NCBI GenBank assembly: GCA_018829965.1
Contig: JAHJTG010000005.1
Span: 113,558 to 148,773, forward strand
DNA length: 35,216 nucleotides
From: Patescibacteria group bacterium
GTDB lineage: Bacteria > Patescibacteriota > Minisyncoccia > Minisyncoccales > Staskawiczbacteraceae
Reading direction: 5' to 3'
Part shown: positions 8,241-35,216 of the stretch, one piece after another
Position numbering within the stretch: the stretch's first letter is position 1
Layout of the letters: each line of letters opens with the position of its first letter
Notes under the pieces: generated by a model
What the model saw: the letters and a program-made list of their open reading frames with translations, nothing else
The model's database searches: none
Told to the model about the DNA's origin: nothing
Translations under genes and position numbers: made by a program

Positions 8241-11186
8241 TTAACAGGGGTGAATCTTTTTTATTATTAATAATAGTTTTTGCCCACTGATTATAATTTC
8301 TTTTTCCAAGTAAGAATTGTCACCCCTTTCAACGCCATAACTTATATTTTTAGATTTAGTCTCAGTTAAAATAAACTCTTTATTTTTATTTATAATCTCA
8401 ACCAAAGATTTGTCACCTGAAATATAAATAGAGATTTTATCTTCTGGTTTCAATCCCTGCTTTTTTCTCATTTCCTGGATCTGCCTGATTATCTCTCTCA
8501 ATGCGCCCTCTTGCCTTAATTCGTCTGTTAATTCAGTGTTCAATTCTACCTCCTTTCCAATTTTATCACTAAAAACAATCTCCCTTACATTCACTTCATC
8601 TTTTATTAAACCCAAAAAGTCCTCTTCGTTTTTTAATTCCTTATTCTTAATTCTTAATTCTTTCAATGGCTGACGGACTTTAATCCCAAGCATCGTTCTT
8701 TCAGCAAGCGCTAAATTGACAATTGCTCTTACTTTTTCCATCTTTTCTTCTAATTTTTTATCTATCTGTTTTTTATTCACTTTCGGCCAATCATTCAAAT
8801 GCACTGATTCCGGCATTCTTTCTGTTTTTAAGTTTCGGTAAATCTCCTCTGCAAAAAACGGCATTATCGGAGCGATAAGTTTCATTAAAGTTAGAAGCGA
8901 AAAATAAAGTGTTTTAATAACATTATCTCTATCCGCTTGCCCTGAGCTTGCCGAAGGGTGGAATCTTTTTCTTGACCGCCTTAAATACCATATTGATAAA
9001 TCATTTATAAAAAAATCTTCAATTGCAATAACTGCAGTTGCGGGGTTATATTCTGCGAAATTTTTATCAACTTTATCAATTAAATTATTCAGTTTTGAAA
9101 CAATCCATTTGTCTAATATATTTTCCGGCTTTAATTTATCTTTTCTCGGAAACTCTTCTTTTTTTACATAAGTAGTTAGAAAAGTGAAGACATTGTAAAG
9201 AGTTAGCAGTTTTCTCTTCACTTCTTCTAAGGCAGGATAGCCGAATCTTAAATTATCTGCCGGATTCTGCTTCGTATACATCCAGCGCATCGGGTCTGCA
9301 CCAACTTTTTCTACAGCATCATTGAACCAAATAGCATTTCCTTTTGACTTATGCATTTCTTCGTCTTTTTCGTCGTGGACTGAAGCAAAACCAAAAATTG
9401 TTTTTACAGGAGATACGCCCTCTAAAACCGTGCTCATTACAATAATTGAATAAAACCAGTTTTTGAATTGGCCAGGAAATGATTCGCAAACCAATTCGGC
9501 CGGAAACCACTTTTTCCAATATTTACGGTTATTATTATAATTCATTGTTGAAAAAGGAACTATTCCTGCGTCCAGCCAGGGATTTCCCACATCAGGAATG
9601 CGAGAAATGATTTCTTTGCATTTTGAACATTTAATTTTGACGCTATCAACCCAGGGACGATGAGGAGAATTCCCTTCTCCGCCTGAGGCGGATCCGCATT
9701 TAGCGGAAAACTCATCCCAGCCGCTAACCGCTCTCTTTTTAAGCTCTTCCTTTGAGCCAATCACATCAAAATTACCGCATTTACATTCATAAATAGGCAA
9801 AGCTAAGCCCCAATATCTTTTTTTAGAAATAAGCCAATCGTGCATGTTCTTTAGCCAATCCAGTTCCCTATCTAAGCCAAACCCAGGAATCCATTTTATT
9901 TTCTTTGCAACTTCCATCAAAGGCTTCCTCAATTTCTCCATTGAAATATACCATTCGTCTACCACTCTCCAGACTAATTCTGTTTTGCATCTCCAACAAG
10001 TCGGGTAGCGATGGGTATATTTTTCGGTTTTAAATAAAAACTCGCCGTTTTTATAGGTCTTCAGACAGTCAAAAATTATTTCCGGGTTTGTTTTTGCATT
10101 CTGACCTGAAAAATTATCCATACCGCTTAAATAAACAGCACTCTCGTCAATTACATCAATCACTGGCAATTTTTCTTTTTGGCCTATCTTAAAGTCTTCT
10201 TCTCCGGCGCCCGGAGCAATATGGACAATACCAGTTCCTTCTTCTGCTGTTACTAAATCTTTATCTAAGACAACAGTGTGAAATGTTTTCGGATTTTCTT
10301 CCTTTGCATTTTTTACTCTTGGCAGATTATCAAATGGGCCTTCGTATTTTAACCCTCCTAAGTCTTTCCCTTTATATGTTTCTTTTGCAATAAAATTCTT
10401 GCCTAATATTTTTTCTGCTAAAGATTTTAATAAAATCAACTCTCCCCCATTAACCTCAAAAACTCCGTATTCAAAATCAGGATTTATAGCTAAAGCAACA
10501 TTTGCCGGAACAGTCCAAGGAGTAGTAGTCCAAACTAGAAAGTTTGCTCCTTTAAATTTTCCATCTAAAATCGGCAATTTTAAATATATTGCCTCGTGAG
10601 TGATTTCCTTATACTCTTCAGTTAAAATTTCGTGTTGAGAGAGAGCAGTCCCGCAACGAGGGCACCAAGGCACAGAATCTCTTCCTTTATACAGATATCC
10701 TTTTTCATGGCATTTTTTCAAAAAACCCCAAATCGTATAATTATTCTCATCGGACATTGTATAGTAAGAATTATCCCAATCCATCCATTGGCCTAATCTA
10801 ATTGATTGTTGAGTTTGCATAGCAGAATATTTCTTCACCCTTTCTTTGCATTTCTCAACGAACTTATCAATCCCATATTTTTCAATATCTTTTTTAGTTT
10901 TGAACCCTAACTCTTTTTCAACTTCAACCTCAACCCATAAACCTTGGCAATCAAAACCATTCTGATAACGTTGGTCAAAACCCTGCATCGCATTATATCT
11001 TTGGAACACATCTTTATATGTTCTACCCCAAGCATGATGCACACCCATAGGATTATTGGCAGTAATCGGGCCATCTAAAAACGACCAACGGTCTTTCCCT
11101 TGGTTTTTAGCGCGAAGCTTCTTAAAAATATCGTTATCTTCCCAAAATTTTAGTATTTTATTTTCTATTTCCGGAAAATTAAGCAT
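8241..11186 (-). CDS. ileS: Isoleucyl-tRNA synthetase, eukaryote-like (IleS2) type
   Basis: This 981-residue class Ia enzyme charges tRNA-Ile and has an editing domain. The HIGH box is the variant GVHHAWGR (about residues 48-55) after DGPITANNPM, and the KMSKS box is MHKSKGN (about 614-620). The editing domain (CP1) lies around 190-390 with TTTPWTVPANVALA. The HHAW form and the flanking sequence match the eukaryote-like clade that includes mupirocin-tolerant IleS2 enzymes. Two palindromes are read in frame: around residue 500 (SAKCGSASGGEG) and around residue 745 (HPSASSGQAD). Both look like late insertions in loops. The C-terminal zinc/anticodon region is shorter than in E. coli IleS. Confidence 0.95.
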   Translation of the reverse strand: MLNFPEIENKILKFWEDNDIFKKLRAKNQGKDRWSFLDGPITANNPMGVHHAWGRTYKDVFQRYNAMQGFDQRYQNGFDCQGLWVEVEVEKELGFKTKKDIEKYGIDKFVEKCKERVKKYSAMQTQQSIRLGQWMDWDNSYYTMSDENNYTIWGFLKKCHEKGYLYKGRDSVPWCPRCGTALSQHEILTEEYKEITHEAIYLKLPILDGKFKGANFLVWTTTPWTVPANVALAINPDFEYGVFEVNGGELILLKSLAEKILGKNFIAKETYKGKDLGGLKYEGPFDNLPRVKNAKEENPKTFHTVVLDKDLVTAEEGTGIVHIAPGAGEEDFKIGQKEKLPVIDVIDESAVYLSGMDNFSGQNAKTNPEIIFDCLKTYKNGEFLFKTEKYTHRYPTCWRCKTELVWRVVDEWYISMEKLRKPLMEVAKKIKWIPGFGLDRELDWLKNMHDWLISKKRYWGLALPIYECKCGNFDVIGSKEELKKRAVSGWDEFSAKCGSASGGEGNSPHRPWVDSVKIKCSKCKEIISRIPDVGNPWLDAGIVPFSTMNYNNNRKYWKKWFPAELVCESFPGQFKNWFYSIIVMSTVLEGVSPVKTIFGFASVHDEKDEEMHKSKGNAIWFNDAVEKVGADPMRWMYTKQNPADNLRFGYPALEEVKRKLLTLYNVFTFLTTYVKKEEFPRKDKLKPENILDKWIVSKLNNLIDKVDKNFAEYNPATAVIAIEDFFINDLSIWYLRRSRKRFHPSASSGQADRDNVIKTLYFSLLTLMKLIAPIMPFFAEEIYRNLKTERMPESVHLNDWPKVNKKQIDKKLEEKMEKVRAIVNLALAERTMLGIKVRQPLKELRIKNKELKNEEDFLGLIKDEVNVREIVFSDKIGKEVELNTELTDELRQEGALREIIRQIQEMRKKQGLKPEDKISIYISGDKSLVEIINKNKEFILTETKSKNISYGVERGDNSYLEKEIIISGQKLLLIIKKIHPC
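8933..8960. repeat. In-frame palindrome in ileS (second site)
   Basis: CCCTGAGCTTGCCGAAGGG forms a small hairpin (CCCT/AGGG). It is translated as the Ser/Ala-rich loop HPSASSGQAD between two helices of the anticodon-binding region. Confidence 0.6.
9678..9707. repeat. In-frame double palindrome in ileS (first site)
   Basis: Two adjacent hairpins: TCCGCC-TGA-GGCGGA (9678-9692) and TCCGC-ATTTA-GCGGA (9693-9707). GC content is well above the rest of the gene. The translation SAKCGSASGGEG is low in complexity. Confidence 0.65.
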
Positions 11187-14504: not shown

Positions 14505-14925
14505 GGGGATGCAAGCTTCGATAAAAGATCTTTCACAAAATAAGCAAACCGAGTATTCTTAAACCTCGTAAAACTTTAAGAGACAAAATAAGTGTCAACT
14601 TATTTAAACAACCAGCGTTAGCATACGTTTAACGCTCATCCTTCCTGCCAACTCCTAATAGGCAGAATAGCCCTATGCTTAAACCTATTTTGCAAAAGTT
14701 TAAGACGGGCCCGTTCAGAATTTTTTAAAAAATTCTAAATAGGGGGTGTCACATATTAGGATATGTGATTTTCCGCCTTAGAAAATCATCGAAAAAATTC
14801 AAGGCTAAGGATATATAAGATTTTTGTCTATTCTTTATCTAATATCCAAGAACTAAAATAGACTACGTTTGTAGAATTATTTTGTAAAAACTTTTAGACG
14901 CGGTTTCAATACCGCCATCTCCACC
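14505..14925 (+). ncRNA. ssrA: Transfer-messenger RNA (tmRNA, trans-translation)
   Basis: The gene lies just downstream of smpB. GGGGATG (14505-14511) can pair with CATCTCC (14916-14922) to form the acceptor stem, and AAGCTTCGA follows the 5' end as in other tmRNAs. A T-arm-like hairpin, GCGGT-TTCAAT-ACCGC, lies at 14900-14915. The encoded end is ACC, so the last A of CCA would be added. A plausible tag reading frame is 14594-14632, ending PALAYV before TAA, which resembles the usual hydrophobic ALAA ending; the resume codon is uncertain. Both flanks carry GCCCC..GGGGC palindromes. The rest of the fold (pseudoknots) was not worked out. Confidence 0.75.
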
Positions 14926-15006
14926 CTCTTTCGCCCCACTAAAGTGGGGCTTCAAAGGGCAAAGCCATTTGGGAAAGAGGTCCTTCGAAGCTTTAGCGAA
15001 GGAGGA
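14925..15006. repeat. Compound palindrome directly upstream of a GIY-YIG gene
   Basis: CCTCTTTC (14925-14932) pairs with GAAAGAGG (14973-14980) around the inner hairpin CCCCACTAAAGTGGGG. Next comes a 27-bp palindrome (14980-15006) with arms TCCTTCG and CGAAGGA. Its 3' end supplies the GGAGG ribosome site for the ATG at 15015. The 27-mer matches the in-frame insert at 23335-23361 at 22 of 27 positions. Confidence 0.75.
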
Positions 15007-15014
15007 ACAAAAAA

Positions 15015-15254
15015 ATGTTTTACGTTTACATTATAAAAAGCAAAAACTATAATAAACATTATACTAGGATTACGAAAGATTTAAGAAAGCGATTCCGGGC
15101 ACATAATTTTGGACAATCGCCACATACTGCAAAATATAAACCCTATGTTTTAGCTTGGTACTGTTGTTTCTCAAATAAAAATAATGCATATAAATTTGAG
15201 AAATATCTAAAAAGTGGTTCTGGAATCGCTTTCTTAAAAAAACATTTAATATAA
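15015..15254 (+). CDS. Small GIY-YIG nuclease-like protein, degenerate motif
   Basis: This 79-residue protein follows the UPF0213-type single-domain GIY-YIG pattern. FYVYIIKS stands for the GIY strand, KDLRKRFRAHN supplies the conserved Arg helix, and the C-terminal KFEKYLKSGSGIAFLKKHL is typical. The YIG strand has changed to HYTRITKD, so the catalytic Tyr-Ile-Gly is not intact and activity is doubtful. It lies right after the compound palindrome that supplies its ribosome site and only 6 bases before infC. It is probably a mobile or selfish gene rather than part of the translation operon. Confidence 0.75.
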   Translation: MFYVYIIKSKNYNKHYTRITKDLRKRFRAHNFGQSPHTAKYKPYVLAWYCCFSNKNNAYKFEKYLKSGSGIAFLKKHLI

Positions 15255-15767: not shown

Positions 15768-15880
15768 CCTACGAATTACGAATGTTAACGAATTACGAAT
15801 AAAAAATTCGTAACGAAAAACGCAAATTCGTACAACGGTTTCCGTATATTCGTAATTCGAAAAAATTCGTAATTAGTAGG
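15768..15880. repeat. CGAATTACGAAT element, long palindromic copy, between infC and rpmI
   Basis: The element starts CCTACGAATTACGAAT and ends with the inverse (ATTCGTAATTAGTAGG), so its ends are inverted repeats of about 16 bp. Its interior holds further CGAAT/ATTCG words. Shorter copies of the end lie at 18727-18760 (inverted) and 34484-34516. It splits a normally tight infC-rpmI-rplT operon and leaves 6 bases before the rpmI start. Confidence 0.8.
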
Positions 15881-16481: not shown

Positions 16482-16946
16482 TCATTCCTTCATTCCAAGA
16501 ATAAATTTATTCGCTCTTGTTAAAACTCCCTGGCTTTTTTTGCGAAACCTATTTTTCCCAAGCCTTTCTATAGCTTTCTCAAAATCTAACCACTCAAATC
16601 CTTTATGCTCGTGGGATATTTTAACATTTTTATTTTTAGACTCGACCAAATAAAAAGCTACTGTTTTAAAAATCTTTTGGCCGCGCATATTCCCTTTGTA
16701 AAAATTTCTTGAGGCAATAAAGGAGAAGCTTTCTTTAGTTTTAAAGCCCGAAATTATTTCTAAATTATCCAATCCTGTCTCTTCTCTCGTCTCCCTCTCC
16801 GCCGCATTAATCTCTTTCTCCTTTTTTTCAATTTCTCCTTTTGGAAAATACCAATAACGTTCATTATGTTTTAAAAGCAGATATTCAATTTTTCCATTTG
16901 GATTGCGGTAAAATACTACCGCTCCAGCTGTTTTTTTGATAGGCAT
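16482..16946 (-). CDS. NUDIX hydrolase
   Basis: The NUDIX box GEIEKKEKEINAAERETREETGL (about residues 37-59) fits GX5EX7REUXEEXGU with all the catalytic glutamates. The surrounding sequence (AGAVVFYRN..., YWYFPKGEIEKKE, a late HEHKGFEWLDFEKA) resembles Ap4A hydrolase-type NUDIX proteins that clean up dinucleoside polyphosphates. The exact substrate cannot be told. Its ATG shares one base with the stop of polX (TAATG), so it is probably translated by reinitiation. Confidence 0.9.
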   Translation of the reverse strand: MPIKKTAGAVVFYRNPNGKIEYLLLKHNERYWYFPKGEIEKKEKEINAAERETREETGLDNLEIISGFKTKESFSFIASRNFYKGNMRGQKIFKTVAFYLVESKNKNVKISHEHKGFEWLDFEKAIERLGKNRFRKKSQGVLTRANKFILGMKE

Positions 16947-18706
16947 TATTTGAAAAACTTTAATAACCTGTCTAAAGATTGTGTATTAATAACATCCTCT
17001 TTTTCCGCCCAACCACGACGGGCTTGGGCAACACCATACTCTATCTGGCTCATTTGTTCTTTTTGATGAGAATCAGTATTTATTATCATTTTAACTCCGG
17101 CTTCTTTTGCTTTCCTTATGTTCGTATCTTTTAAATCTAACCTCACCGGTGAAGAATTTATCTCTAAAATAGTGCCTGTTTCTTTTGCCACTCTCAATAT
17201 CTTATCAAAATCAATTGCATACTCTTCACGACGCTGGATTAAACGGCCGGTAGGGTGAGAAATAATATCAATGTTGGGATTTTTCATGGCTCTGATTATT
17301 CTCTCGGTCATTTCTTCCTTTGCCATATTCATATGAGAATGAACACCAGCAATAACATAATCGAGCTGCGACAGAACCCCGTCTTTTATATCAACCGAAC
17401 CATTTGACAATATGTTTGTCTCACAACCCTGCAAAACTTGAAACTTGGAACTTGGAACTTGAAGCTTTTCGTTCAATTTTTCAATTTCTTTTCGTTGTTG
17501 AAGCAATTGCCTCCCACTTAAGCCATGCTCAATTCTTAAAAACTCTGTGTGGTCGGAAATGCCAAGATATTCATATCCTAAATTTCTCGCATATTTTGCC
17601 ATTTCTTCAATTGAATCTTCCCCGCCATCCCAATTAGAATGACAATGCAAATCTCCTTTAATATCTTTTTGCTCAATTAATTTTGGCAGTTTATTTTTAA
17701 GACCTGCCTCTAATTCTCCTTGATTTTCTCTTAATTCCGGCGGGATCCAAGGCAAGCCAATTTTTTTATAAATTTCCTCTTCGGTCTTGCCTGCGAGCAT
17801 TTTTGAACCACGAAACATGCCATATTCGTTCAGCTTTAGACCTCTGCTTATAGCAAGCATCCTGGTTTCTATGTTATGCTCTTTTGAGCCAGTAAAATAT
17901 TGCAGAGCAGACCCATAGCTTTTTTCCGGCACAACTCTTAAATCTACGTCGAAACCTTGTTTCACCCCCACACCACAACTTTGTTTGGTGTGGGGGTGAA
18001 TTCTTACAGAAGCTTTAGTAGAACCTTTTGCCCAAACTTTTTCTACTCCGGGTAGTTTAATAAAAAAATCTACCACTTTGGCGGGATTCTTAGAAATTGT
18101 TAATATATCAACATCGCCAATAGTTTCTTTCATCCGTCTCGCAGACCCAGCTAAACTTATTTTCTTTATCTCTTTTAAGCTTTCTATCTCTTTTAAAATT
18201 TCTCGGATTCTGGGCATAATTTCGCCCAAAAGAAACCTTCCTTTACCACGTTTTAAAAAAGCAAGACCTTCTAAAATATTCTTTTCTGTTTTTTCTCCGA
18301 AACCGAATAAAGGAGCGATTTTGTGAGACTTGGCTGCTTTTTCCAAATCTTTTAGAGCTTTGATTTTAAGTTTTTGATAAAGAATCTTTACTTTTTTAGG
18401 ACCCAATCCTTCAACAGAAGTTAGGGATTCCAAATCCATTGGAAACTTTTTCTTGTACTCTTCATAAATTCTAATTGTTCCGGTTTTTAAACATTCTTCA
18501 ATAGCCTTTGCAATACCCTCTCCAACTCCCGGAATCTTTTTAAGGACTTCAAATCCTCCTTTTCTATACATCTCCTCAACGTCTTCATCCAGCGCCTCTA
18601 AAGCCATGGCCACTTTTTCGTAGGCATAAGGCTTAAACGGCACTCCGTCCATTTGAAGATAAGTTGCAACAGTATAAAATATTTTTGCTATCTCCTGATT
18701 TTTCAT
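16946..18706 (-). CDS. polX: Family X DNA polymerase with PHP domain (PolX)
   Basis: The 586-residue protein combines a Pol beta-like polymerase with a PHP phosphoesterase for base-excision and end repair. In order: the 8-kDa and HhH regions (GVGEGIAKAIEE, VEGLGPKKVKIL), the nucleotidyl-transferase motif LAGSARRMKETIGDVDIL (about residues 184-201) with the first two metal aspartates, the third in GFDVDLRVV, and the PHP domain from about 352 (KGDLHCHSNWDGG, HSHMNM, DSHQ). A 15-bp-stem hairpin is read in frame just before the third catalytic Asp strand and adds HPHTKQSCGVGVKQ (about 235-248). Other PolX proteins do not have this, as far as I recall. The enzyme may tolerate it as a loop. Confidence 0.95.
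   Translation of the reverse strand: MKNQEIAKIFYTVATYLQMDGVPFKPYAYEKVAMALEALDEDVEEMYRKGGFEVLKKIPGVGEGIAKAIEECLKTGTIRIYEEYKKKFPMDLESLTSVEGLGPKKVKILYQKLKIKALKDLEKAAKSHKIAPLFGFGEKTEKNILEGLAFLKRGKGRFLLGEIMPRIREILKEIESLKEIKKISLAGSARRMKETIGDVDILTISKNPAKVVDFFIKLPGVEKVWAKGSTKASVRIHPHTKQSCGVGVKQGFDVDLRVVPEKSYGSALQYFTGSKEHNIETRMLAISRGLKLNEYGMFRGSKMLAGKTEEEIYKKIGLPWIPPELRENQGELEAGLKNKLPKLIEQKDIKGDLHCHSNWDGGEDSIEEMAKYARNLGYEYLGISDHTEFLRIEHGLSGRQLLQQRKEIEKLNEKLQVPSSKFQVLQGCETNILSNGSVDIKDGVLSQLDYVIAGVHSHMNMAKEEMTERIIRAMKNPNIDIISHPTGRLIQRREEYAIDFDKILRVAKETGTILEINSSPVRLDLKDTNIRKAKEAGVKMIINTDSHQKEQMSQIEYGVAQARRGWAEKEDVINTQSLDRLLKFFK
17961..18000. repeat. Perfect hairpin inserted in polX, matching the GIY-YIG element ends
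   Basis: TTCACCCCCACACCA (17961-17975) pairs perfectly with TGGTGTGGGGGTGAA (17986-18000) across a 10-base loop. The arm sequence recurs at both ends of the GIY-YIG element at 28115-28426. It could be a MITE-like, gene-less derivative. Confidence 0.85.
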
Positions 18707-18726: not shown

Positions 18727-18760
18727 GATTCGTAATTCGTTTAGATTCGTAATCCGTAGG
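18727..18760. repeat. CGAATTACGAAT element, short inverted copy
   Basis: Read on the minus strand: CCTACGGATTACGAAT, then CTAAACGAATTACGAAT. This matches the start of the 15768 element. It ends directly against the stop codon of the MFS gene (18761) and fills most of the gap to polX. Confidence 0.75.
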
Positions 18761-23082: not shown

Positions 23083-23379
23083 TTATACTTTATAAACACT
23101 ATAACCTTCTCTTACTTTTTCGCTTACCTTTAAGCCGGTGGAACTGCCTTTTTTTGCTGTTTTTACTTTTTCGTGCTCAACCTGCATTGAATCAACGGCT
23201 TGAGTAAAATCGGTATTTTCTCCGCCGACAATCCTTATATTATCTCCTTCTTTTAAAACACCTGAAAGCTCAATCACCGCTACTCCGATATTAGAAAAGT
23301 AATGGGTAATCTTACCGATTAGTTTTCCTTCCTTGTCCGCCGTAGCTTTAGCGGAGGCGGATTCTTTTTCTTTTGGCAT
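23083..23379 (-). CDS. EF-Tu domain-2-like beta-barrel protein
   Basis: This 98-residue protein (ATG at 23379; a TTG start 6 codons upstream is less likely) matches a small family annotated as translation-elongation-factor-like: GKITHYFSNIGVAVIELSGVLKEGDNIRIVGGENTDFTQAVDSMQVEH is the EF-Tu domain 2 beta-barrel without a GTPase domain. The role is unknown. Near the N-terminus SASAKATADKEG is encoded by a 27-bp palindrome and is absent from the core fold, so it looks inserted. Confidence 0.8.
   Translation of the reverse strand: MPKEKESASAKATADKEGKLIGKITHYFSNIGVAVIELSGVLKEGDNIRIVGGENTDFTQAVDSMQVEHEKVKTAKKGSSTGLKVSEKVREGYSVYKV
23335..23361. repeat. 27-bp palindrome in frame in the EF-like gene
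   Basis: The arms are TCCGCC and GGCGGA around GTAGCTTTAGCGGA. It has the same framework as the palindrome at 14980-15006 in front of the first GIY-YIG gene; the differences at paired positions keep the stem (TT..AA against GC..GC). Confidence 0.75.
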
Positions 23380-23400
23380 AATACTTTTGCCTTGCAAAAG

Positions 23401-23575
23401 AAACTCTAAATACTAAATTCTAAATACGGCTTGGATTTTATTATTTAGAATTTGGGATTTGCTCCGACTTTGTTCCGACCTTGTCGAGAATGCTCGACTT
23501 TGTCGGCATCGAGAGTCCTCGACGATGTCGGGATTTAGGATTTAGGATTTCTAATTTAGGATTTACTATTTATTC
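23401..23575. repeat. Composite intergenic repeat, second copy of the 1672-1866 type
   Basis: The left arm carries CTAAAT-type words (23404-23426), the core at 23461-23550 is nearly identical to 1771-1860, and the right arm carries GGATTTAG words (23531-23570). An open frame running through the core is not considered coding. Confidence 0.8.
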
Positions 23576-23847: not shown

Positions 23848-23885
23848 GTTTTTTTATATGTGGATATTCAAACGAGATGCTTGTC

Positions 23886-23992
23886 CTTCCGAAGCCCGAA
23901 TGTAAATGAGGGCGAAGGAAGAAATTATGGGGACTTACTCTATTCAGAAATTTATAAAAATTTCTGACGAGCTCGACGCAAACTATGTTTGC
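23886..23992. other. Cluster of three hairpins before the methyltransferase 3' end
   Basis: CTTCC-GAA-GCCC pairs with GGGC-GAA-GGAAG (about 23886-23921), with a symmetric GAA/GAA internal loop. TCAGAAATTT-ATAA-AAATTTCTGA lies at 23944-23967, and GCAAAC-TAT-GTTTGC at 23978-23992 overlaps the gene's stop. They may end the methyltransferase transcript. Confidence 0.5.
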
Positions 23993-27174: not shown

Positions 27175-28119
27175 TTAATTTCTTTTTATTCTAATCAATC
27201 CAGAGCAAGGAATTATTTCAACCCCATTCTTTTCTATTTCATCTAAGAATAGATTTATTCCTAAAGAATCAGAAGAAATATGACCGGCTATGACAACATT
27301 TAAATTCGCATTTTCAGCTTCTTTCTTATGTTCTTCAGAAATATGCATTCCAACAACAGTGCCGATACCAGCCTGAACCATTTTTTCAAAAAGTTTAGGG
27401 GAGCCTTCTGTCCCTCCTGTGATTTCAGTTAAAGCAATTTTACCACAGCGATTATCAGGAGAACCGACAAAAATCTTAGGACCAGCGCCAATTTTCATTG
27501 CTTCTTTATATTCCGGCACTTCTTTTAACAAACTAACCAAATCACTAATTCTTTCTGGATTTTTGCTTTCTATAAGTTTTTTAAGAAAACTAGCTGCTAA
27601 GTTATCACAACAAGTGTGCACGTTTATTAAATTAGCCTTTAAAAGCTTAGCAGCGTCAACTGTTCTTTGATGATTAGCTGAGTTAACGCCTCTGGCAACT
27701 TCTGATATTCTTTCTTTCATAAGCCCCTCGGCAACGTTTATAGGAACACCGTAATAATTTAGAACATCGCACTGCAAACTCATTACGTCTGCTAAATTAG
27801 CTAGTCCTTTGCCAATAGGGTGATGGCCTATTATTAAATCTATATTTCCTAATTCTTTTGCAATCAAAATCTCGTCGGAGCTAATATCAACACCGACCAT
27901 GATCCTCTTAATTTCTTTATCCTCTGCGATATGGTAAATTCTAGAATCTAAATAAGGGTTTTCTAGCGCTTCTTTATCAAATTCTTCTTTTTCTTTCTCA
28001 TTCATCCCCTCGTATTTCTTTTTTTTATTATCCAAAAATTTCCTAACTCCATCTTCTCCCCTAAAGTCAACTTTTATACCCATCTGTATCGCTAAATTGT
28101 GGATCTCTTTAATCTTCAC
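27175..28119 (-). CDS. Nif3-like dinuclear metal centre protein
   Basis: The 314-residue protein has the Nif3/DUF34 hallmark IIGHHPIGKG (metal-binding His pair), a later HxxE-type element (MHISEEHKKEAE) and IAGHISSDSLGIN. The family resembles GTP cyclohydrolase I type 2; its physiological reaction is unsettled. The start is taken as GTG at 28119, because the TTG 4 codons upstream lies wholly inside the inverted repeat of the neighbouring GIY-YIG element. That repeat also provides the bases before and including the GTG, so the element's insertion may have re-set the gene's 5' end. Confidence 0.85.
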   Translation of the reverse strand: MKIKEIHNLAIQMGIKVDFRGEDGVRKFLDNKKKKYEGMNEKEKEEFDKEALENPYLDSRIYHIAEDKEIKRIMVGVDISSDEILIAKELGNIDLIIGHHPIGKGLANLADVMSLQCDVLNYYGVPINVAEGLMKERISEVARGVNSANHQRTVDAAKLLKANLINVHTCCDNLAASFLKKLIESKNPERISDLVSLLKEVPEYKEAMKIGAGPKIFVGSPDNRCGKIALTEITGGTEGSPKLFEKMVQAGIGTVVGMHISEEHKKEAENANLNVVIAGHISSDSLGINLFLDEIEKNGVEIIPCSGLIRIKRN

Positions 28120-28426
28120 CCTACACACCAAACGAGTTTAATACCCAAGGCTTCTCTTTATCCTAACAATGAGTTGCCTTAAAGCTTTGGCCCGTAGTTT
28201 TAAATTATGTTCTCTTTTAAATGCGTCTTGTTTTGAAGCATACGCTTCATAGTAAACCAAATTAAATGGTTTCCTTGTTTTCGTGGACTTAACTAATCCT
28301 GAATTATGTTTTTTAAACCTCTCTCTTAAATCATTAGTACACCCTATATACAATTTACCATCTTTTTTACTTTTTAGGATATAGATAAAAAACATAATTC
28401 AAAACTCGTTATGGTGTGGGGGTTCA
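28115..28426. mobile_element. GIY-YIG gene bounded by inverted repeats (candidate mobile element)
   Basis: The ends are ACCCTACACACCAAACGAGTTT on the left (28118-28139) and the complement of ACCCCCACACCATAACGAGTTT on the right (28402-28423). They match over about 22 bases with small gaps. The GIY-YIG frame fills the interior, its stop lies in the left repeat, and the flanking genes start or stop at the element edges. The same end sequence forms the hairpin inside polX (17961-18000). It is 312 bp in all. Confidence 0.65.
28138..28395 (-). CDS. GIY-YIG nuclease-domain protein (UPF0213-like)
   Basis: The 85-residue single-domain protein has FFIYILKS (GIY strand), KLYIGCTNDLRERFKKHNSG (YIG strand plus the catalytic Arg helix) and a C-terminal KREHNLKLRAKALRQLI. 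All motif residues look intact, unlike the degenerate copy at 15015. Such proteins are predicted single-strand or structure-specific DNA nucleases of unknown role, abundant in CPR genomes. Its tight fit inside inverted repeats suggests it belongs to a mobile element and may cut at the hairpin ends. Confidence 0.85.
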   Translation of the reverse strand: MFFIYILKSKKDGKLYIGCTNDLRERFKKHNSGLVKSTKTRKPFNLVYYEAYASKQDAFKREHNLKLRAKALRQLIVRIKRSLGY

Positions 28427-29889: not shown

Positions 29890-31143
29890 TTAGTGCGATA
29901 TTCTTCTATGCTCTTCTCTTACTACCTCTCTATCGTCCCAAGGAATCTTTTTAGAACCGATCACTAATAACTGCTCTGTGCCTTTGCCCAAAACTAAAAC
30001 AATATCATTTTCTTCTGTCAACTCCAGCCCTTTTTTAATTGCTTCTCTCCTATTTGGAATTTCGTATAAATTGGTTTTCTGAAACCCCTCCCCGATAACC
30101 CCTGATTTTATTTCTGATATAATCTCTTCTGGCTTTTCGTTATATGGGTCTTCATTGCATAAAATAATAATATCTGAGTTTTCTGCGGCTATCTTGCCTA
30201 AAACCGGTCTTTTCCATTTATCTCTCCCTCCACCAGCAGAACCGAAAATAGCAATTATTTTATTATGCGGAAAATCTTTGACTGCTTTAAAAACTTCTTC
30301 AAAAGAATCTGGGGTATGAGCTAAGTCTACAATCACTTTAAAAGGTTTTTCTATTATTACCTCCATGCGTCCCTGTATTGTTTTTATCTTTTCCAAAGCT
30401 CTTTTGCAGGTTTCTAAATTTACGCCGTATATTAAACCGATACAAATTGCCGATAGGGCGTTATATATATTAAATCTTCCTAATAGTTTTAAGTTGAACC
30501 TTATACTATCAATAGAAAAACTTACTCCGTCTCTCGATTCTTCTAAATCTTTTGCAAAGATTGCTTCGGGTTTTTGGTTCTTTGTGCTAAAGCCCAGTTT
30601 CTTTTCTGCTTTGAATCGTAAAAAATAATCTACATTTTTGTCGTCTAAATTAAGGATGTGATTCTTTTTCGTCGCTTTAAATAACTTCAGCTTTTCGTTC
30701 CTATAATTTTCAAAGCTTCCATGGGCTTCAATATGTTCTGGCTGTAAGTTAGTAAAAACAGCTGTATCAAAGGTTATAAACTTATGACGATATTGTTTAA
30801 TGCCTTCAGATGTTACTTCTAAAATTGCGTAATCGCATTTGGCTCTTACTGCTTTTCTTAAAAAACCTTGAATTTTAAAACGGCCGGGCATTGTCATATG
30901 CTCGGGGTTTAGAATTTCTTTATCACCAACTTTAATAGTAGCTGAAGTAAGCCAGGCAACCTTAAATCCCGCCTCTTCTAATATATTCCCTGCCAATATG
31001 GCAGTTGTAGATTTCCCCTTAGTGCCGGTAATCCCAATAACCTTTATCTTTTTGCTGGGAAATCTATGCCAAAAAGCGCTTATAAGCGCGAGTTTATAAT
31101 GATAAACATTAAAAATAAATTTAGGAATGAATTTTTTAATCAT
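29890..31143 (-). CDS. Mur ligase family protein, MurE-like without the N-terminal domain
   Basis: The 417-residue protein has the Mur ligase ATP loop GITGTKGKSTTA (residues 37-48), the central domain with LEVTSEGIKQ and NLQPEHIEAHG, and the C-terminal domain with IQGRMEVI, VDLAHTPDSFEEV, FGSAGGGRDKWKRP and EDPYNEKPEEI. These are closest to MurE, which adds the third residue to the peptidoglycan stem. The usual N-terminal UDP-MurNAc-binding domain is missing; about 30 residues with a hydrophobic stretch stand in its place. The DAP-specific DNPR motif reads NEDPY, so the amino acid substrate may differ. Its ATG overlaps the stop of the DGR reverse transcriptase. Confidence 0.85.
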   Translation of the reverse strand: MIKKFIPKFIFNVYHYKLALISAFWHRFPSKKIKVIGITGTKGKSTTAILAGNILEEAGFKVAWLTSATIKVGDKEILNPEHMTMPGRFKIQGFLRKAVRAKCDYAILEVTSEGIKQYRHKFITFDTAVFTNLQPEHIEAHGSFENYRNEKLKLFKATKKNHILNLDDKNVDYFLRFKAEKKLGFSTKNQKPEAIFAKDLEESRDGVSFSIDSIRFNLKLLGRFNIYNALSAICIGLIYGVNLETCKRALEKIKTIQGRMEVIIEKPFKVIVDLAHTPDSFEEVFKAVKDFPHNKIIAIFGSAGGGRDKWKRPVLGKIAAENSDIIILCNEDPYNEKPEEIISEIKSGVIGEGFQKTNLYEIPNRREAIKKGLELTEENDIVLVLGKGTEQLLVIGSKKIPWDDREVVREEHRRISH

Positions 31144-32165
31144 TTGCTTAATTGCTTTGAGATTTCGTTTTTTAGTTTATAGGAATTACAATGCTTTAAA
31201 ACTCCGAAATACGACTGGATTGTCTGCCCAAAAGAATACTTCGTTATTTTATTTTGTTCTAATCCTAATAATTTATTATTTATCTTTTTAAACATTCTTC
31301 TCTTAGTTTTTGTTCTTAAAACTCTATGACAGGGAAAACTCACATATCCTAGAAAATCTGCGCCTTTATAATACTTTCTAATACTTATCTTAGCCGGATG
31401 CAGAGATAATTTCAAATTGTTTTTAAGAAAAGCATTTATCTCAAGAATAAGCTCTTTTAGATATTTTTTATCAACGCTTAAGATAATAAAGTCGTCGCAA
31501 TAACGGACATAGTATTTTATTCTCAGTTTTTGTTTAATAAATTGGTCTAGTTTGTTAAGATATATATTAGCAAATAATTGGCTGGTGATATTTCCTAATG
31601 GTAGCCCCCTATTAAAACTTCTAATTATTTTCTCTATTAACCAGAAGGCGTTTTCATCTTTGATTTTCTTTTTGATTAAATTGGTTAAAACATCTTGATT
31701 AATAGAGTCAAAGAATTTTTTAATATCGCATTTTAAGACAAAACAAGTTTTAGTGCTGTTTTTGCCAACTTTTCCAGCAAATTTCTGAAGCCGATTTATG
31801 GCCCTATGGGTTCCTTTATCGTTTCTGCAAGAATAAGAGTCGGAAATAAAGGACTTATCAAAAATCGGATACAGAATCCTAAATACGGCGTGATGTAAAA
31901 CTCTATCCTTCACACAGGACTTATGGATTCTTCTTAGCTTTGGGTCGCAGATATTAAATGATATATAGTCAGAATGACAATAAGTTTTAGTTTTTAATTC
32001 GTAATGGAGTTTGAATATATTACCTTCTAGGTTATACTCAAACTCCTGAACGTCTTTTTTCTTTCTTTTGCCTTTTTTAAATTCGTCCCAAGCTAAAAAT
32101 AGGTTTTCAAGAGAAATAATTTCATCAAAAATATTATGACTTTTAAATCCCCCCCCCCAACCAGT
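31140..32165 (-). CDS. Diversity-generating retroelement reverse transcriptase
   Basis: The reverse transcriptase copies the template-repeat RNA with errors at adenines. Motifs: upstream helices (SLENLFLAWDEFKKGKRKKK), KDRVLHHAVFRILYPIFDKSFISDSYSC, KCDIKKFFDSI (first metal Asp), GLPLGNITSQLFANIYLNKLD (the DGR-type motif 4), RYCDDFII (catalytic YxDD), and FLGYVSFPCHR. There is no maturase or endonuclease domain, which argues against a group II intron. The frame is open from 32165 but has no ATG, GTG or TTG before 31913, deep inside the conserved part. Adding one G to the G10 tract at 32149-32158 would connect to an ATG at 32185 (348 residues). The stop overlaps the Mur ligase start (ATGA). Confidence 0.92.
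   Translation of the reverse strand, partial: TGWGGGFKSHNIFDEIISLENLFLAWDEFKKGKRKKKDVQEFEYNLEGNIFKLHYELKTKTYCHSDYISFNICDPKLRRIHKSCVKDRVLHHAVFRILYPIFDKSFISDSYSCRNDKGTHRAINRLQKFAGKVGKNSTKTCFVLKCDIKKFFDSINQDVLTNLIKKKIKDENAFWLIEKIIRSFNRGLPLGNITSQLFANIYLNKLDQFIKQKLRIKYYVRYCDDFIILSVDKKYLKELILEINAFLKNNLKLSLHPAKISIRKYYKGADFLGYVSFPCHRVLRTKTKRRMFKKINNKLLGLEQNKITKYSFGQTIQSYFGVLKHCNSYKLKNEISKQLSK
32149..32158. repeat. C10 homopolymer at the joint 5' ends of RT and avd
   Basis: Ten C on the plus strand lie in the first codons of both divergent DGR genes. A length of 11 (or 8) gives ATG starts to both: RT from 32185 on the minus strand and avd from 32136 on the plus strand. Confidence 0.9.
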
Positions 32166-32170
32166 TTAAT

Positions 32171-32503
32171 TTGCCTATTTTGCATAAAGTTTATGAGTTG
32201 TATAAATTGTTTTATCAATACCTTGAATCTTTTCCGAGAAAAGACCGCTATGTTTTAGGCCAAAAATGCGAAAATATAATTTTGGAGATTTTAGAATTGC
32301 TTATCTCTACGACACAATTTTTTAATAAAAATAAGAAAATAGAACTGTTAGAAAAAGCGAGTATAAAATTAAACGTGTTAAGAATTATTGCCCGATTAGC
32401 AAAAGATGTAAAAGTGTTGGATTTAAAGAGATATATTATTTTACAAGAAAAAATTAACGAAATCGGAAAAATGCTTGGTGGTTGGATAAAATCGTTAAAA
32501 TAA
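32171..32503 (+). CDS. avd: Avd-like four-helix-bundle protein of the DGR
   Basis: The 110-residue all-helical protein (PILHKVYELYKLFYQYLESFPRKDRYVLGQKCENIILE, ending EIGKMLGGWIKSLK) matches the accessory variability determinant family, which forms a basic pentameric barrel that binds RT and template RNA. The assembled frame begins at TTG 32171 or TTG 32180. With one more C in the C10 tract it would begin at ATG 32136, adding MTFKSPPPNQFN. It runs opposite to RT and to the template repeat; in the classical BPP-1 cassette all of these share one strand. A strong terminator follows. Confidence 0.88.
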   Translation: MPILHKVYELYKLFYQYLESFPRKDRYVLGQKCENIILEILELLISTTQFFNKNKKIELLEKASIKLNVLRIIARLAKDVKVLDLKRYIILQEKINEIGKMLGGWIKSLK

Positions 32504-32519
32504 TAAAAACGGTTTTACT

Positions 32520-32556
32520 AGAGACACCCCTAGAAACTAGGAACGTCTCTTTTTTT
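32520..32556 (+). terminator. Intrinsic terminator of avd
   Basis: AGAGAC (32520-32525) pairs with GTCTCT (32545-32550), with the inner stem CCTAG-AAA-CTAGG, then a T run. It stops avd transcription 17 bases before the template repeat. Confidence 0.88.
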
Positions 32557-32572
32557 AGAATAGAGAAAGAAG

Positions 32573-32689
32573 TTCGGGAGGCGGCAAGACCAAGATTGTC
32601 ATTAACATTGTCATCCGAGTAGTTGTTGACATTCAAACCATCAGGATCAGAGTTACCGACATTGAGACGGTTGCCATTCGAAGAAATTT
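32573..32689 (-). repeat. DGR template repeat (TR)
   Basis: 117 bp aligned without gaps to the variable repeat at 32996-33112 (offset 423). Eight differences (plus-strand positions 32597, 32602, 32609, 32627, 32654, 32672, 32678, 32688) are all T on the plus strand, that is A in the coding sense. Thirty-one of the 117 positions are such adenines. Read in the target's frame it encodes ten Asn codons. The GC-rich end TTCGGGAGGCGGC is unchanged and may be the initiation-of-homing region. Confidence 0.97.
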
Positions 32690-32903
32690 ATCTGTTTTTA
32701 TCTCTACCACTGGAAATTGAAAATGCAAATTATATTTTCTCTTTCCTGTATTTTATTCCGAAGTAGCTCTATCAGAGATAGAACACCTTCGCCAAAAACA
32801 GACAAGAAGTTCAGTCTCTATTAAATAACTCTTGCGGGGTTAAGCCGTAACCGAACCCTCATTAGCAAGTAACCATATTATACAAAATTTCGCGACAAAA
32901 AAA
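32690..32903. other. Region upstream of the template repeat
   Basis: I see no gene. On the minus strand TATAAT (32734-32729) could be the -10 box of a template-RNA promoter, with a weak -35. There is a hairpin TCTATC-AGA-GATAGA (32768-32782). AAGAAGTTCAGTCT (32804-32817) is the exact inverse of bases at the end of the target gene (32982-32995). Confidence 0.4.
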
Positions 32904-32945
32904 TAACCCTGCAACAAAACGAACATTCGTTTTGACACAGGGTTA
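32897..32945 (-). terminator. Strong hairpin terminator of the DGR target gene
   Basis: TAACCCTG (32904-32911) pairs with CAGGGTTA (32938-32945), and inside it CAAAACGAA-CA-TTCGTTTTG (32915-32934). On the minus strand TTATTTTTTTG follows. Other DGRs need a hairpin downstream of VR for efficient homing, so it could have a second role. Confidence 0.8.
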
Positions 32946-32978
32946 GAATTAACGATTCAATTCTCAAATCTCAAAGAT

Positions 32979-33824
32979 TCAAGACTGAACTTCTTTTCGG
33001 GAGGCGGCAAGACCAAGATGGTCACTAACATAGTCATCCGAGTAGTTGTAGACATTCAAACCATCAGGATCAGAGTAACCGACATTGAGACGGTGGCCAT
33101 GCGAAGAAATATCCTGGCATCTACCATATTTTGTCTGATTAAGGTAGATACCATTCTTCTTATAATAGAGGACGTGTTTTGTAATTTCCTCTATCGCAGA
33201 TGGCACTTCGTACTCTGCCGAAAGCATTGCTTTTTGCTGGTCAAAGGTCTTACTTGTAGAGTCAGGGATGATTTCCAACGGCATCAGATACCATTTGTAT
33301 TTGCAAATCGATTTATTGACGAATTCCTCTCTAATATACCAAGCGTCTGCATAACGATAGAAGCGTAGCTGACCAGGAGCCGGACAAATCTCTTGCCACT
33401 TAACGATAGAAAGGGGATCGCCATTAATTTGGCTAAGCCCGAGAAACGCAAAGTGCGTGTCTTTAACCATTTTACCTTTGTAAAACGGGCAAGGGCCATT
33501 CAAAATATCCTCATTGTACGGAAACTTTTCTATCTCGCGAAGCTGTTTTTTGGTGAAATTGACACCAAAATCTTTTGCCCAATTTATAGAACCGTAGTAA
33601 TTTTTGCCCATAATAACACGGGCGATTTCTTGGCTGATAGACGGCTGAAAGCCTTTAGTCAGCCAGAAACTTACTAAACGTTCCCGAAATTTTGGGTCAT
33701 CAATTGGCACCTGCAGATCATTATAAGTAAGACCTGCCTCTTCCAACACACGATGCAAGGTTGCCAGCTTACCGGATACCTTGCTAAAACTAACTTGGTT
33801 CACAATGGTTTTTTTATTTTCCAT
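32979..33824 (-). CDS. DGR target (variable) protein
   Basis: The 281-residue protein (ATG at 33824, preceded by GGGAAGG) ends in the variable repeat, residues about 238-276. Seven Asn codons of the template are changed there: two to His, then three to Tyr, one to Ser and one to His along the chain. The repeat ends in LGLAASR, the place of the GFRLVR-like strand of C-type-lectin-fold targets. The first 190 or so residues (VSFSKVSGKLATLHRVLEEAG, WLTKGFQPSISQEIARVIMG, ICPAPGQLRFYRYADAWYIREEF) are not recognised. There is no signal peptide or membrane helix, so the protein may act in the cytoplasm or leave by an unknown route. Confidence 0.9.
   Translation of the reverse strand: MENKKTIVNQVSFSKVSGKLATLHRVLEEAGLTYNDLQVPIDDPKFRERLVSFWLTKGFQPSISQEIARVIMGKNYYGSINWAKDFGVNFTKKQLREIEKFPYNEDILNGPCPFYKGKMVKDTHFAFLGLSQINGDPLSIVKWQEICPAPGQLRFYRYADAWYIREEFVNKSICKYKWYLMPLEIIPDSTSKTFDQQKAMLSAEYEVPSAIEEITKHVLYYKKNGIYLNQTKYGRCQDISSHGHRLNVGYSDPDGLNVYNYSDDYVSDHLGLAASRKEVQS
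32996..33112 (-). repeat. DGR variable repeat (VR)
   Basis: 3' part of the target gene, matching the template repeat at all but eight positions. In the coding sense the template A has become T four times, C three times and G once. The stop codon follows 14 codons-worth of bases or less beyond the conserved GC-rich end. Confidence 0.97.
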
Positions 33825-33896
33825 CGTACACCTTCCCTTCTTTGTAAAAGGACTTCTTTTTTCTGAACGAAACACAATGTTTTGTTCTACATTATA

Positions 33897-34483: not shown

Positions 34484-34516
34484 CCTACGAATTACGAATA
34501 TTACCGAATTACGAAT
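34484..34516. repeat. CGAATTACGAAT element, short copy upstream of ruvA
   Basis: CCTACGAATTACGAAT followed by ATTACCGAATTACGAAT, the same start as the element at 15768. It lies in the ruvA leader. Confidence 0.75.
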
Positions 34517-34582
34517 ATTTTATTTTATTGTATCATAATTAATATATACTTAGAATCTAATTACAGTTTTTAAAACTCACCC

Positions 34583-34639: not shown

Positions 34640-34903
34640 ATGGCAATTACAAAATCAGCTAAAAAAGCTCTTCGCCAGAGCATAAAAAGAAGAGGGAGAA
34701 ATATTGTGTATAAAGACAAATTGAAAAAACTCGTAAAAGAGTTGCGAACTTTAATTGCGAACAAGAAAATTGATGAGGCAAAAAAACTCTTGCCACAGGT
34801 TTACCAAATTTTAGACAAATCAGCAAAAGTAGGAGTAATCAAGAAAAACACCGCAGACAGAAAGAAATCTAGACTAACAAGGTTGATAAACCCTAAGCAC
34901 TAA
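34640..34903 (+). CDS. rpsT: Ribosomal protein bS20
   Basis: The 87-residue, Lys/Arg-rich all-helical protein has the bS20 pattern: AITKSAKKALRQSIKRRGRN at the start and the C-terminal KNTADRKKSRLTRLIN. It is a 30S protein that binds 16S rRNA early in assembly. It is next to the convergent end of holA, a pairing often seen in bacteria. Confidence 0.95.
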   Translation: MAITKSAKKALRQSIKRRGRNIVYKDKLKKLVKELRTLIANKKIDEAKKLLPQVYQILDKSAKVGVIKKNTADRKKSRLTRLINPKH

Positions 34904-35096
34904 ATCCTAAACTCTAAATAAATCACAATTCCAAAATCCAAAACTCAAAAACGTTTATAACCATGAGTGAGGTTGAAAAAGAAAAATAAATTTTTCTTTT
35001 TCAACCGAGCGAAGTGATTATGTGGCAACGCCACAATAATTTGAATATTTGAATTTAGTATTTATTTAGGATTTAGAAATTAGGATTTAGGATTTT
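34904..35096. repeat. Composite intergenic repeat with long hairpin core
   Basis: The left arm has CTAAAT-type words (34904-34950) and the right arm GGATTTAG words (35050-35096). The core has a perfect 16-bp stem, GGTTGAAAAAGAAAAA (34971-34986) with its complement at 34991-35006, and TGTGGC-AAC-GCCACA (35021-35035). The words ATGAGTGAG and CCGAGCGA at the stem edges are shared with 12158-12300. Confidence 0.75.
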
Positions 35097-35216
35097 ATAA
35101 TTTCATTATTAGCATTTCTAGCGCTATTTCTGGCTCGATTCTCCCTGTTTTAATATTAAGGTCTACCTCAAAAATCCTTTGGTAGATTTTTTTTAGTTCC
35201 TGCAAGCTGAATTGAC
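35095..35216 (-). CDS. holA: DNA polymerase III delta subunit, C-terminal end (partial)
   Basis: Only the last 40 residues are in the window: FSLQELKKIYQRIFEVDL followed by NIKTGRIEPEIALEMLIMKL. This matches the C-terminal helical end of HolA, the clamp-loader delta subunit (usual form: FS..EL....L...D..IKTG...p..aLe.li). The gene runs off the right edge of the window. The adjacency to rpsT supports the call. Confidence 0.75.
   Translation of the reverse strand, partial: QFSLQELKKIYQRIFEVDLNIKTGRIEPEIALEMLIMKL

Follow-up and report, generated by a model that had tools for sequence, protein, structure and literature searches.

A GIY-YIG nuclease gene with a structured palindromic leader behind tRNA and tmRNA genes: a probable small mobile element of Patescibacteria and other bacteria

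Introduction

Coding palindromes have been seen in Rickettsia since 2000. The Rickettsia RPEs are palindromes fused in-frame into conserved proteins and are also present in the tmRNA and RNase P RNA genes; the review passages on them give a length of 105–146 bp and name no enzyme (PMC2229807). REP/REPIN sequences, by comparison, are dispersed palindromes of 20–40 bp that show compensatory stem changes and are associated with RAYT (TnpA_REP), a nuclease whose clades have cognate palindromes (PMC3116915, PMC8266576). An association of small nuclease genes with tRNA genes is known for SegB, a free-standing GIY-YIG homing endonuclease of phage that cuts within tRNA genes (PMC13096335), and a survey of horizontal transfer places GIY-YIG proteins among the genes that Patescibacteria have donated to other bacteria (PMC12455944).

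The DNA analyzed here, referred to as the window, is a 35,216-nt stretch of contig JAHJTG010000005.1 from Patescibacteria group bacterium GCA_018829965.1, and all coordinates are positions in it unless another contig or locus is named. We propose that a palindrome at 14980–15006 is the last hairpin of a mobile, selfish-looking element of ~330 bp (14925–15254), composed of a leader and a GIY-YIG gene and located behind the tmRNA gene. This proposal, which includes homing of the element and the production of non-autonomous offspring, is in our judgment probably correct. As in REP/RAYT systems, palindromes with a conserved stem are dispersed in the genome and copies lie beside the gene of an enzyme. 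In contrast to RAYT, an HuH tyrosine nuclease, the enzyme described here has GIY-YIG as its sole Pfam match and is therefore not a RAYT; in addition, autonomous copies sit at tRNA and tmRNA 3' ends, other copies lie in-frame within genes, and copy number is low. The in-frame palindromes in conserved proteins recall RPEs, as does a locus (L102) where a GIY-YIG gene adjoins RNase P RNA, but here a nuclease partner is proposed. By analogy with SegB, likewise a small GIY-YIG nuclease gene tied to tRNA genes, the element would work like a free-standing homing endonuclease; it differs from SegB in its residence in bacterial chromosomes, its structured palindromic leader, its insertion right behind the RNA 3' end, and its dispersed palindromes. 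Elements that enter tRNA or tmRNA sites through tyrosine recombinases also target, and possibly duplicate, the RNA 3' end, whereas the present units measure a few hundred bp and carry a GIY-YIG nuclease and no integrase.

A literature search, with subscription journals and bioRxiv largely outside its scope, found no description of a leader–GIY-YIG element. The units would form a widespread class of small mobile elements, apparently not described before, in which an ~80-residue nuclease and a folded leader lie behind essential RNA genes.

A family of structured palindromic repeats

An earlier note on this DNA had reported that the 27-mers at 14980–15006 and 23335–23361 (both given on the plus strand) match at 22 of 27 bases, and alignment of the two copies bears this out, with mismatches at positions 5, 6, 9, 20, and 24. 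The second copy is solitary and lies within a frame that is open on the minus strand, where it encodes the peptide SASAKATADK. Folding predicts for both 27-mers a TCCNNC/GNNGGA stem around a CGNAGC..GCGNAG core; at 14980–15006 the stem reads TCCTTC/GGAGGA and the core CGAAGC..GCGAAG. The earlier note had also described the stem as preserved through an exchange of TT..AA for GC..GC. A compensatory change is indeed present, but the exact pairing is different: pair 5–24 changes from T-A to G-C, while pair 6–23 changes from T-G to C-G, replacing a wobble with a full pair.

The core pattern GTCCNNCGNAGCTTTAGCG has three matches in the window's own genome and 130 matches in 58 of 380 Patescibacteria genomes, and the reversed control pattern has none in any of the 380. 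A structural search of the own genome for hairpins of this type, termed P4 below, returned 13, compared with none in reversed and none in shuffled sequence; structural scanning also detected an additional P4-like hairpin, TCCTTCCGAAGC..GCGAAGGAAGAA, in the window at 23884–23923 (plus strand). These empty controls rule out pure chance as the origin of the palindrome. Pairing at the two free stem positions was compared in 112 fetched copies with that in 2000 shuffles. Position N5 forms a Watson-Crick pair in 82 of the 112 copies (shuffled mean 37, maximum 56) and position N6 in 90 (shuffled mean 44, maximum 58), so that the observed pairing exceeds every shuffle and the covariation proposed as a check in the earlier note is clearly present. 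The palindromes are a real and structured repeat family.

A GIY-YIG nuclease clade located behind tRNA and tmRNA genes

The first of two GIY-YIG genes in the window, gene 1 (15015–15254, plus strand), encodes a protein of 79 amino acids with a match to Pfam PF01541 (E 2.1e-13). Alignments show that Y16, R26, H30, and E62 are retained and that G18 of the YxG motif is replaced by arginine (YTR); with the Pfam match and the catalytic Y, R, and E present, the protein belongs to the GIY-YIG superfamily. Its AlphaFold model is a confident GIY-YIG fold (pLDDT 94), to which the nearest solved structures are those of UPF0213 and SLX1 (1zg2, 7cq2, 6seh). SLX1 is a branched-DNA nuclease, and a fold of this kind, as modeled, would suit the recognition of a cruciform palindrome. 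Although UPF0213 (YhbQ-like) and SLX1 appear closest in predicted fold, they are host proteins that have neither a palindromic leader nor a location at RNA genes. A PHROGs search with gene 1 gave no match, and viral contigs gave only two relatives.

Relatives of gene 1 were gathered by protein search, with neighboring genes disregarded, from the 380 Patescibacteria genomes and from a set that spans 84,980 species. Their alignment reveals the signature FExYLKSGSGxAFxxKRL, and the clade so defined (the FExYLKSGSG clade, to which gene 1 belongs) is distributed over Patescibacteria, Bradyrhizobium, Rhizobium, Omnitrophota, Bacteroidota, and others. For 100 clade members the upstream sequence was long enough to be assessed, and 68 of them lie on the same strand as a tRNA or tmRNA gene whose 3' end is no farther than 300 nt upstream, compared with 14 of 629 control genes from the window's own genome (2.2%; OR 93, p 2e-56). 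The host RNA genes vary and include those for tRNA-Ser, Ala, Pro, Gly, Gln, Ile, and Glu, tmRNA, and others. In the window the element lies directly behind the tmRNA gene ssrA (14505–14926, plus strand), which was identified by Rfam (RF00023, 87.6 bits, E 6.9e-33); ARAGORN made no call for it. Leader–nuclease units thus occur behind tRNA and tmRNA 3' ends in many bacteria. This is the main association, overlooked in the earlier note, whose interpretation as a whole is partly supported; a larger structured leader includes the palindrome as one of its hairpins.

The palindrome itself is also linked to GIY-YIG genes. In four places a GIY-YIG gene is preceded on its own strand by an exact palindrome that starts 100 nt or less away, at a distance of 35 nt in the window and in genome G126, 31 nt in G341, and ~91 nt in G019, while a hand calculation from 130 palindromes, 444 GIY-YIG genes, and ~56 Mb gives ~0.05 adjacencies expected by chance. 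The palindrome and an FExYLKSGSG-clade nuclease are found in the same genome in 27 cases against 8.1 expected (Fisher p = 1.5e-11, a value that ignores kinship). The enrichment beside GIY-YIG genes on which the earlier note had staked its reading is therefore confirmed. An ordinary dispersed intergenic repeat that came to lie by chance between ssrA and an unrelated GIY-YIG gene would account for the 82 of 112 exact copies outside long ORFs and for the lack of a GIY-YIG gene within 1.5 kb of most exact copies. Such a chance neighborhood is scarcely credible, however, in view of the four adjacencies, the identical 35-nt spacing between palindrome and gene in G126, which belongs to another family than the window's genome, and the dozens of unrelated loci that share the leader structure; it is strongly disfavored by the co-inheritance of leader type and nuclease in Bradyrhizobium described below.

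The structured leader

Related leaders share a plan in which typically 80–150 nt separate the RNA 3' end from the nuclease ATG and a helix, P1, encloses hairpins P2 and P3 and is followed by P4 immediately before the nuclease gene. In the window, where all these features are on the plus strand, the 5' arm of P1 (CCTCTTTC, 14925–14932) abuts the tmRNA 3' end and is complementary to the 3' arm (GAAAGAGG, 14973–14980). Direct reading places between them P2, the hairpin GCCCCAC-TAAA-GTGGGGC (14933–14950), and P3, a small hairpin with a GGC-AAA-GCC core (14953–14971) whose slot is occupied in related leaders by GTGCAAGCAC or GTGGCGCAGCCAC. The palindrome at 14980–15006 is P4, the final hairpin of the leader, as indicated by its fold and the covariation of the 112 copies.

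The P1 layout of the window recurs in 70 related leaders. P1 consists of a CTTCGC or CTACGC stretch paired with GCGAAG farther downstream; in a non-redundant set of 51 leaders, 46 have the stretch (CT[TA]CGC) no more than 15 nt from the RNA end, where 0.16 would be expected, and P1 arms pair better within their own locus than across loci (p 1.1e-7). The pairing of the leader is conserved while its sequence changes. A strict P4 is present in 15 of the 51 non-redundant leaders, whereas shuffled sequences contain none and only 0.5% of random windows contain one, so that P4 is a frequent and not an obligatory part of the leader.

The strong folding and covariation of the leaders would also be compatible with regulation at the RNA level, by a non-mobile RNA (a tRNA 3' trailer, a terminator, or a translation switch) that acts in cis on a resident gene linked to the tRNA and in which P4 masks the ribosome site. 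P4 of the window does carry GGAGGA in its 3' arm, 8 bases ahead of the start codon ATG at 15015, and the earlier note had assigned the ribosome site of gene 1 to the palindrome. As a general function of the leader, however, this role is rejected, because no more than 3 of 51 non-redundant leaders have an SD-like site. We consider an RNA-level regulator improbable: 16 of 70 leaders contain a −10-like box ahead of the ATG (3.2 expected), which suggests that some of the genes are transcribed from a separate promoter located past P4, and the host RNA genes are widely varied. The duplicated RNA tails and the rapid replacement at one Bradyrhizobium site, both presented in the following section, also speak against it. 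An Rfam scan of the related leaders and the window leader gave no credible match, and a known Rfam leader or riboswitch is accordingly rejected for the leaders scanned.

Signs of insertion and replacement at RNA 3' ends

Signs of insertion are present at 9 of 70 loci, where the nuclease stop codon is closely followed by 13–18 nt that duplicate the end of the locus's own RNA gene, namely the 3' strand of the T-stem and the acceptor. RNA ends from other loci match less well at these positions, and several of the duplicates abut a P4-like palindrome, e.g., GGTATTCCGAAGCTTTAGCGTAGGATACC followed by CTCAGCCCGTGC. At a further locus that has no ORF, L061, tRNA-Pro is followed by ~60 nt, P4, and a duplicated tRNA-Pro tail, and 17 of the 112 palindromes have an RNA 3' end less than 150 nt upstream of them; several of the 17 constitute a leader without a nuclease. 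No RNA-tail duplicate was seen behind the nuclease gene of the window. Because of this, and because arginine replaces the nearly invariant glycine of YxG, the window copy is probably old and its nuclease possibly impaired, perhaps inactive.

Duplication of the 3' end of the RNA gene is typical of integrase-driven insertions at tRNA genes, and the duplicates could have been left by an island of the tyrosine-recombinase type that has lost its integrase or is served by one in trans, with the RNA 3' end as att site and the GIY-YIG gene as cargo. We regard such an origin as highly improbable. The units are only ~300–400 bp and no integrase was found in them: the GIY-YIG gene is the sole ORF between leader and flanking gene in the window, and at the nine loci with a duplicated RNA tail no other ORF separates the leader from the duplicate. 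Furthermore, leader and nuclease stay constant from one RNA target to another, and the two are inherited together.

This co-inheritance was established with 70 loci at one Bradyrhizobium tRNA-Ala gene, where two leader types (v1 and v2) alternate and a few loci contain only a leader or remnants. In a phylogeny of the upstream flanks the leader type requires 22 changes (22.4 for shuffled types), at least 13 of them forced by well-supported branches, and on a tree of the downstream flanks 18 changes (shuffled 19.7), at least 15 of them so forced. On the nuclease tree, by comparison, it requires a single change, on a branch with support of 100/100, a value as low as which was obtained in 0 of 500 shuffles. 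The leader histories therefore match the nuclease and not the flanks, and leader and nuclease constitute one unit that has been replaced repeatedly at a fixed site. At this Bradyrhizobium tRNA-Ala gene, on which the test of unity rests, gene and element are replaced independently of the flanks, in the manner of a homing endonuclease. Metagenome assembly is an unlikely cause of the pattern, because many of the Bradyrhizobium records are isolate genomes.

A mechanism that would produce these patterns can be outlined for the leader–nuclease element. The nuclease would cut the T-arm/acceptor part of RNA genes that carry no matching element, after which repair or recombination would copy the element in, a process equivalent to homing. 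The leader hairpins may serve in DNA recognition or form branched-DNA structures, and the tRNA would be unharmed, the element being located past its 3' end. The solitary palindromes would represent non-autonomous offspring of the same enzyme.

Dispersal of the palindrome is not a general property of the clade. A strict Bradyrhizobium P4 pattern has a single match in a 9.2-Mb genome, within the element itself, where many had been expected.

Solitary palindromes in coding sequence

Thirty of the 112 palindromes lie within long ORFs, with one dominant frame per strand, and the peptides encoded by the in-frame copies resemble SSFAKASADK or LSAEALAKAD. The proteins that bear them include what we take to be SecA, MurB, ThrRS, and MutM. 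The in-frame palindrome of SecA is absent from all six aligned relatives; with this insert and the 30 coding copies, the family shares with RPEs the property of in-frame insertion in conserved proteins. In the window, positions 521–557 and the IleRS ORF at 8241–11186 contain more odd in-frame peptides (SSFAKLRTTEGQ; HPSASSGQADRD) that resemble the coding palindrome inserts.

From co-occurrence and shared structure, we infer that the clade nuclease spreads the solitary palindromes. The link between the two is correlative, because 31 of the 58 palindrome-bearing genomes are without a clade nuclease at the threshold used. Those 31 genomes, together with the frequent location of solitary copies in genes distant from RNA genes, would also agree with a different history, in which the GIY-YIG homing unit is real while the solitary palindromes in coding frames go back to a repeat that is either unrelated or very old, as with the Rickettsia RPEs, and from which the leader borrowed its hairpin. 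This history seems to us rather unlikely, if still worth serious consideration: co-occurrence of palindrome and nuclease exceeds expectation (27 against 8.1), solitary copies are enriched behind RNA 3' ends, and L061 ties the palindrome to a tRNA-tail duplicate without a nuclease. Were the solitary copies indeed offspring of the element, the clade nuclease would be a concrete candidate for the enzyme, long in question, that inserts short coding palindromes in-frame into conserved bacterial proteins, and recurrent odd peptides of Patescibacteria (AKATADK, AEALAEAD, SFAKASADK), which disturb annotation and structure prediction, would be explained.

Other GIY-YIG clades and palindrome families

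GIY-YIG gene 2 of the window (28138–28395, minus strand; 85 amino acids; PF01541, E 1e-17) belongs to another clade than gene 1. Upstream of it lies an inverted repeat, CCCCCACACCATAACGAGTTT (28402–28422, minus strand), whose core defines a second family (CCCCCACACCA) with 23 copies in the own genome; a matching inverted repeat, AAACTCGTTTGGTGTGTAGGG (28119–28139, minus strand), overlaps the stop codon of gene 2 and extends past it, so that inverted copies enclose the gene. A palindrome of the same family, CCCCCACACCACAACTTTGTTTGGTGTGGGG (17965–17995, plus strand; C3:131522 in the own genome), is an in-frame insert in a PolX-like ORF (16946–18706) that stays open. The earlier suggestion that both GIY-YIG genes of the window adjoin a palindrome inserted elsewhere thus holds for gene 2 as well, except that a different palindrome family and a different nuclease clade are involved. 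Inverted repeats of the CCCCCACACCA family also enclose tRNA-Gln and tRNA-Gly genes of the own genome at C8:74785–74888, C8:80286–80393, and C9:4818–4925, an arrangement in which the tRNA genes have the appearance of cassettes.

A third family (CTTCTAACGGGG / CCCCGTTAGAAG) has 38 copies in the own genome, with inverted pairs ~100–130 bp apart that look MITE-like. Its arm CCCGTTAGA lies directly before GIY-YIG genes of a GMGKR clade at 14 of 29 loci, compared with 4.7% of random windows, and loci of this clade with a third-family arm were found in other genomes (L390–L397). A clear two-sided terminal inverted repeat is present at few of the 29 loci, and the GMGKR-type clade and its repeat are a lead.

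These observations suggest one palindrome family per nuclease clade. On a wider and more tentative reading, one that is possible without being our preferred expectation, GIY-YIG nucleases with clade-specific palindromes would be mobilizers comparable to RAYTs and would give bacteria a further enzymatic route for spreading palindromic repeats, the FExYLKSGSG clade with P1–P4 and coding palindromes and other clades with terminal repeats (CCCGTTAGAGAC, CCCCCACACCA) and MITE-like copies that even flank tRNA genes.

Further GIY-YIG genes of other clades adjoin RNA genes. At L102 (1501–2208) such a gene is located directly before an RNase P RNA gene, and the sequence upstream of it repeats the 5' end of the RNase P RNA, partly inverted. 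At L098, L080, L204, and L213, GIY-YIG genes of other clades precede tRNA genes and the 5' part of the tRNA is duplicated, a layout that is the mirror image of that of the FExYLKSGSG clade. A short perfect palindrome, ACACCGGGTGTTG, has 29 exact copies in the own genome, often clustered on contigs C13 and C16.

Other repeats in the window

The region 31140–33875 contains a reverse transcriptase gene (31140–31913, minus strand) and, near it, a pair of 115-nt repeats that are 94% identical (32573–32687 and 32996–33110); judged by this arrangement, it looks like a diversity-generating retroelement. A+T-rich repeats (GGATTTAGGATTT; ACGAATTACGAAT) lie between genes at 1669–1874, 23400–23570, and 34888–35100 and at 15768–15880, 18728–18760, and 34484–34517, and account for some of the genome's most over-represented 12-mers.
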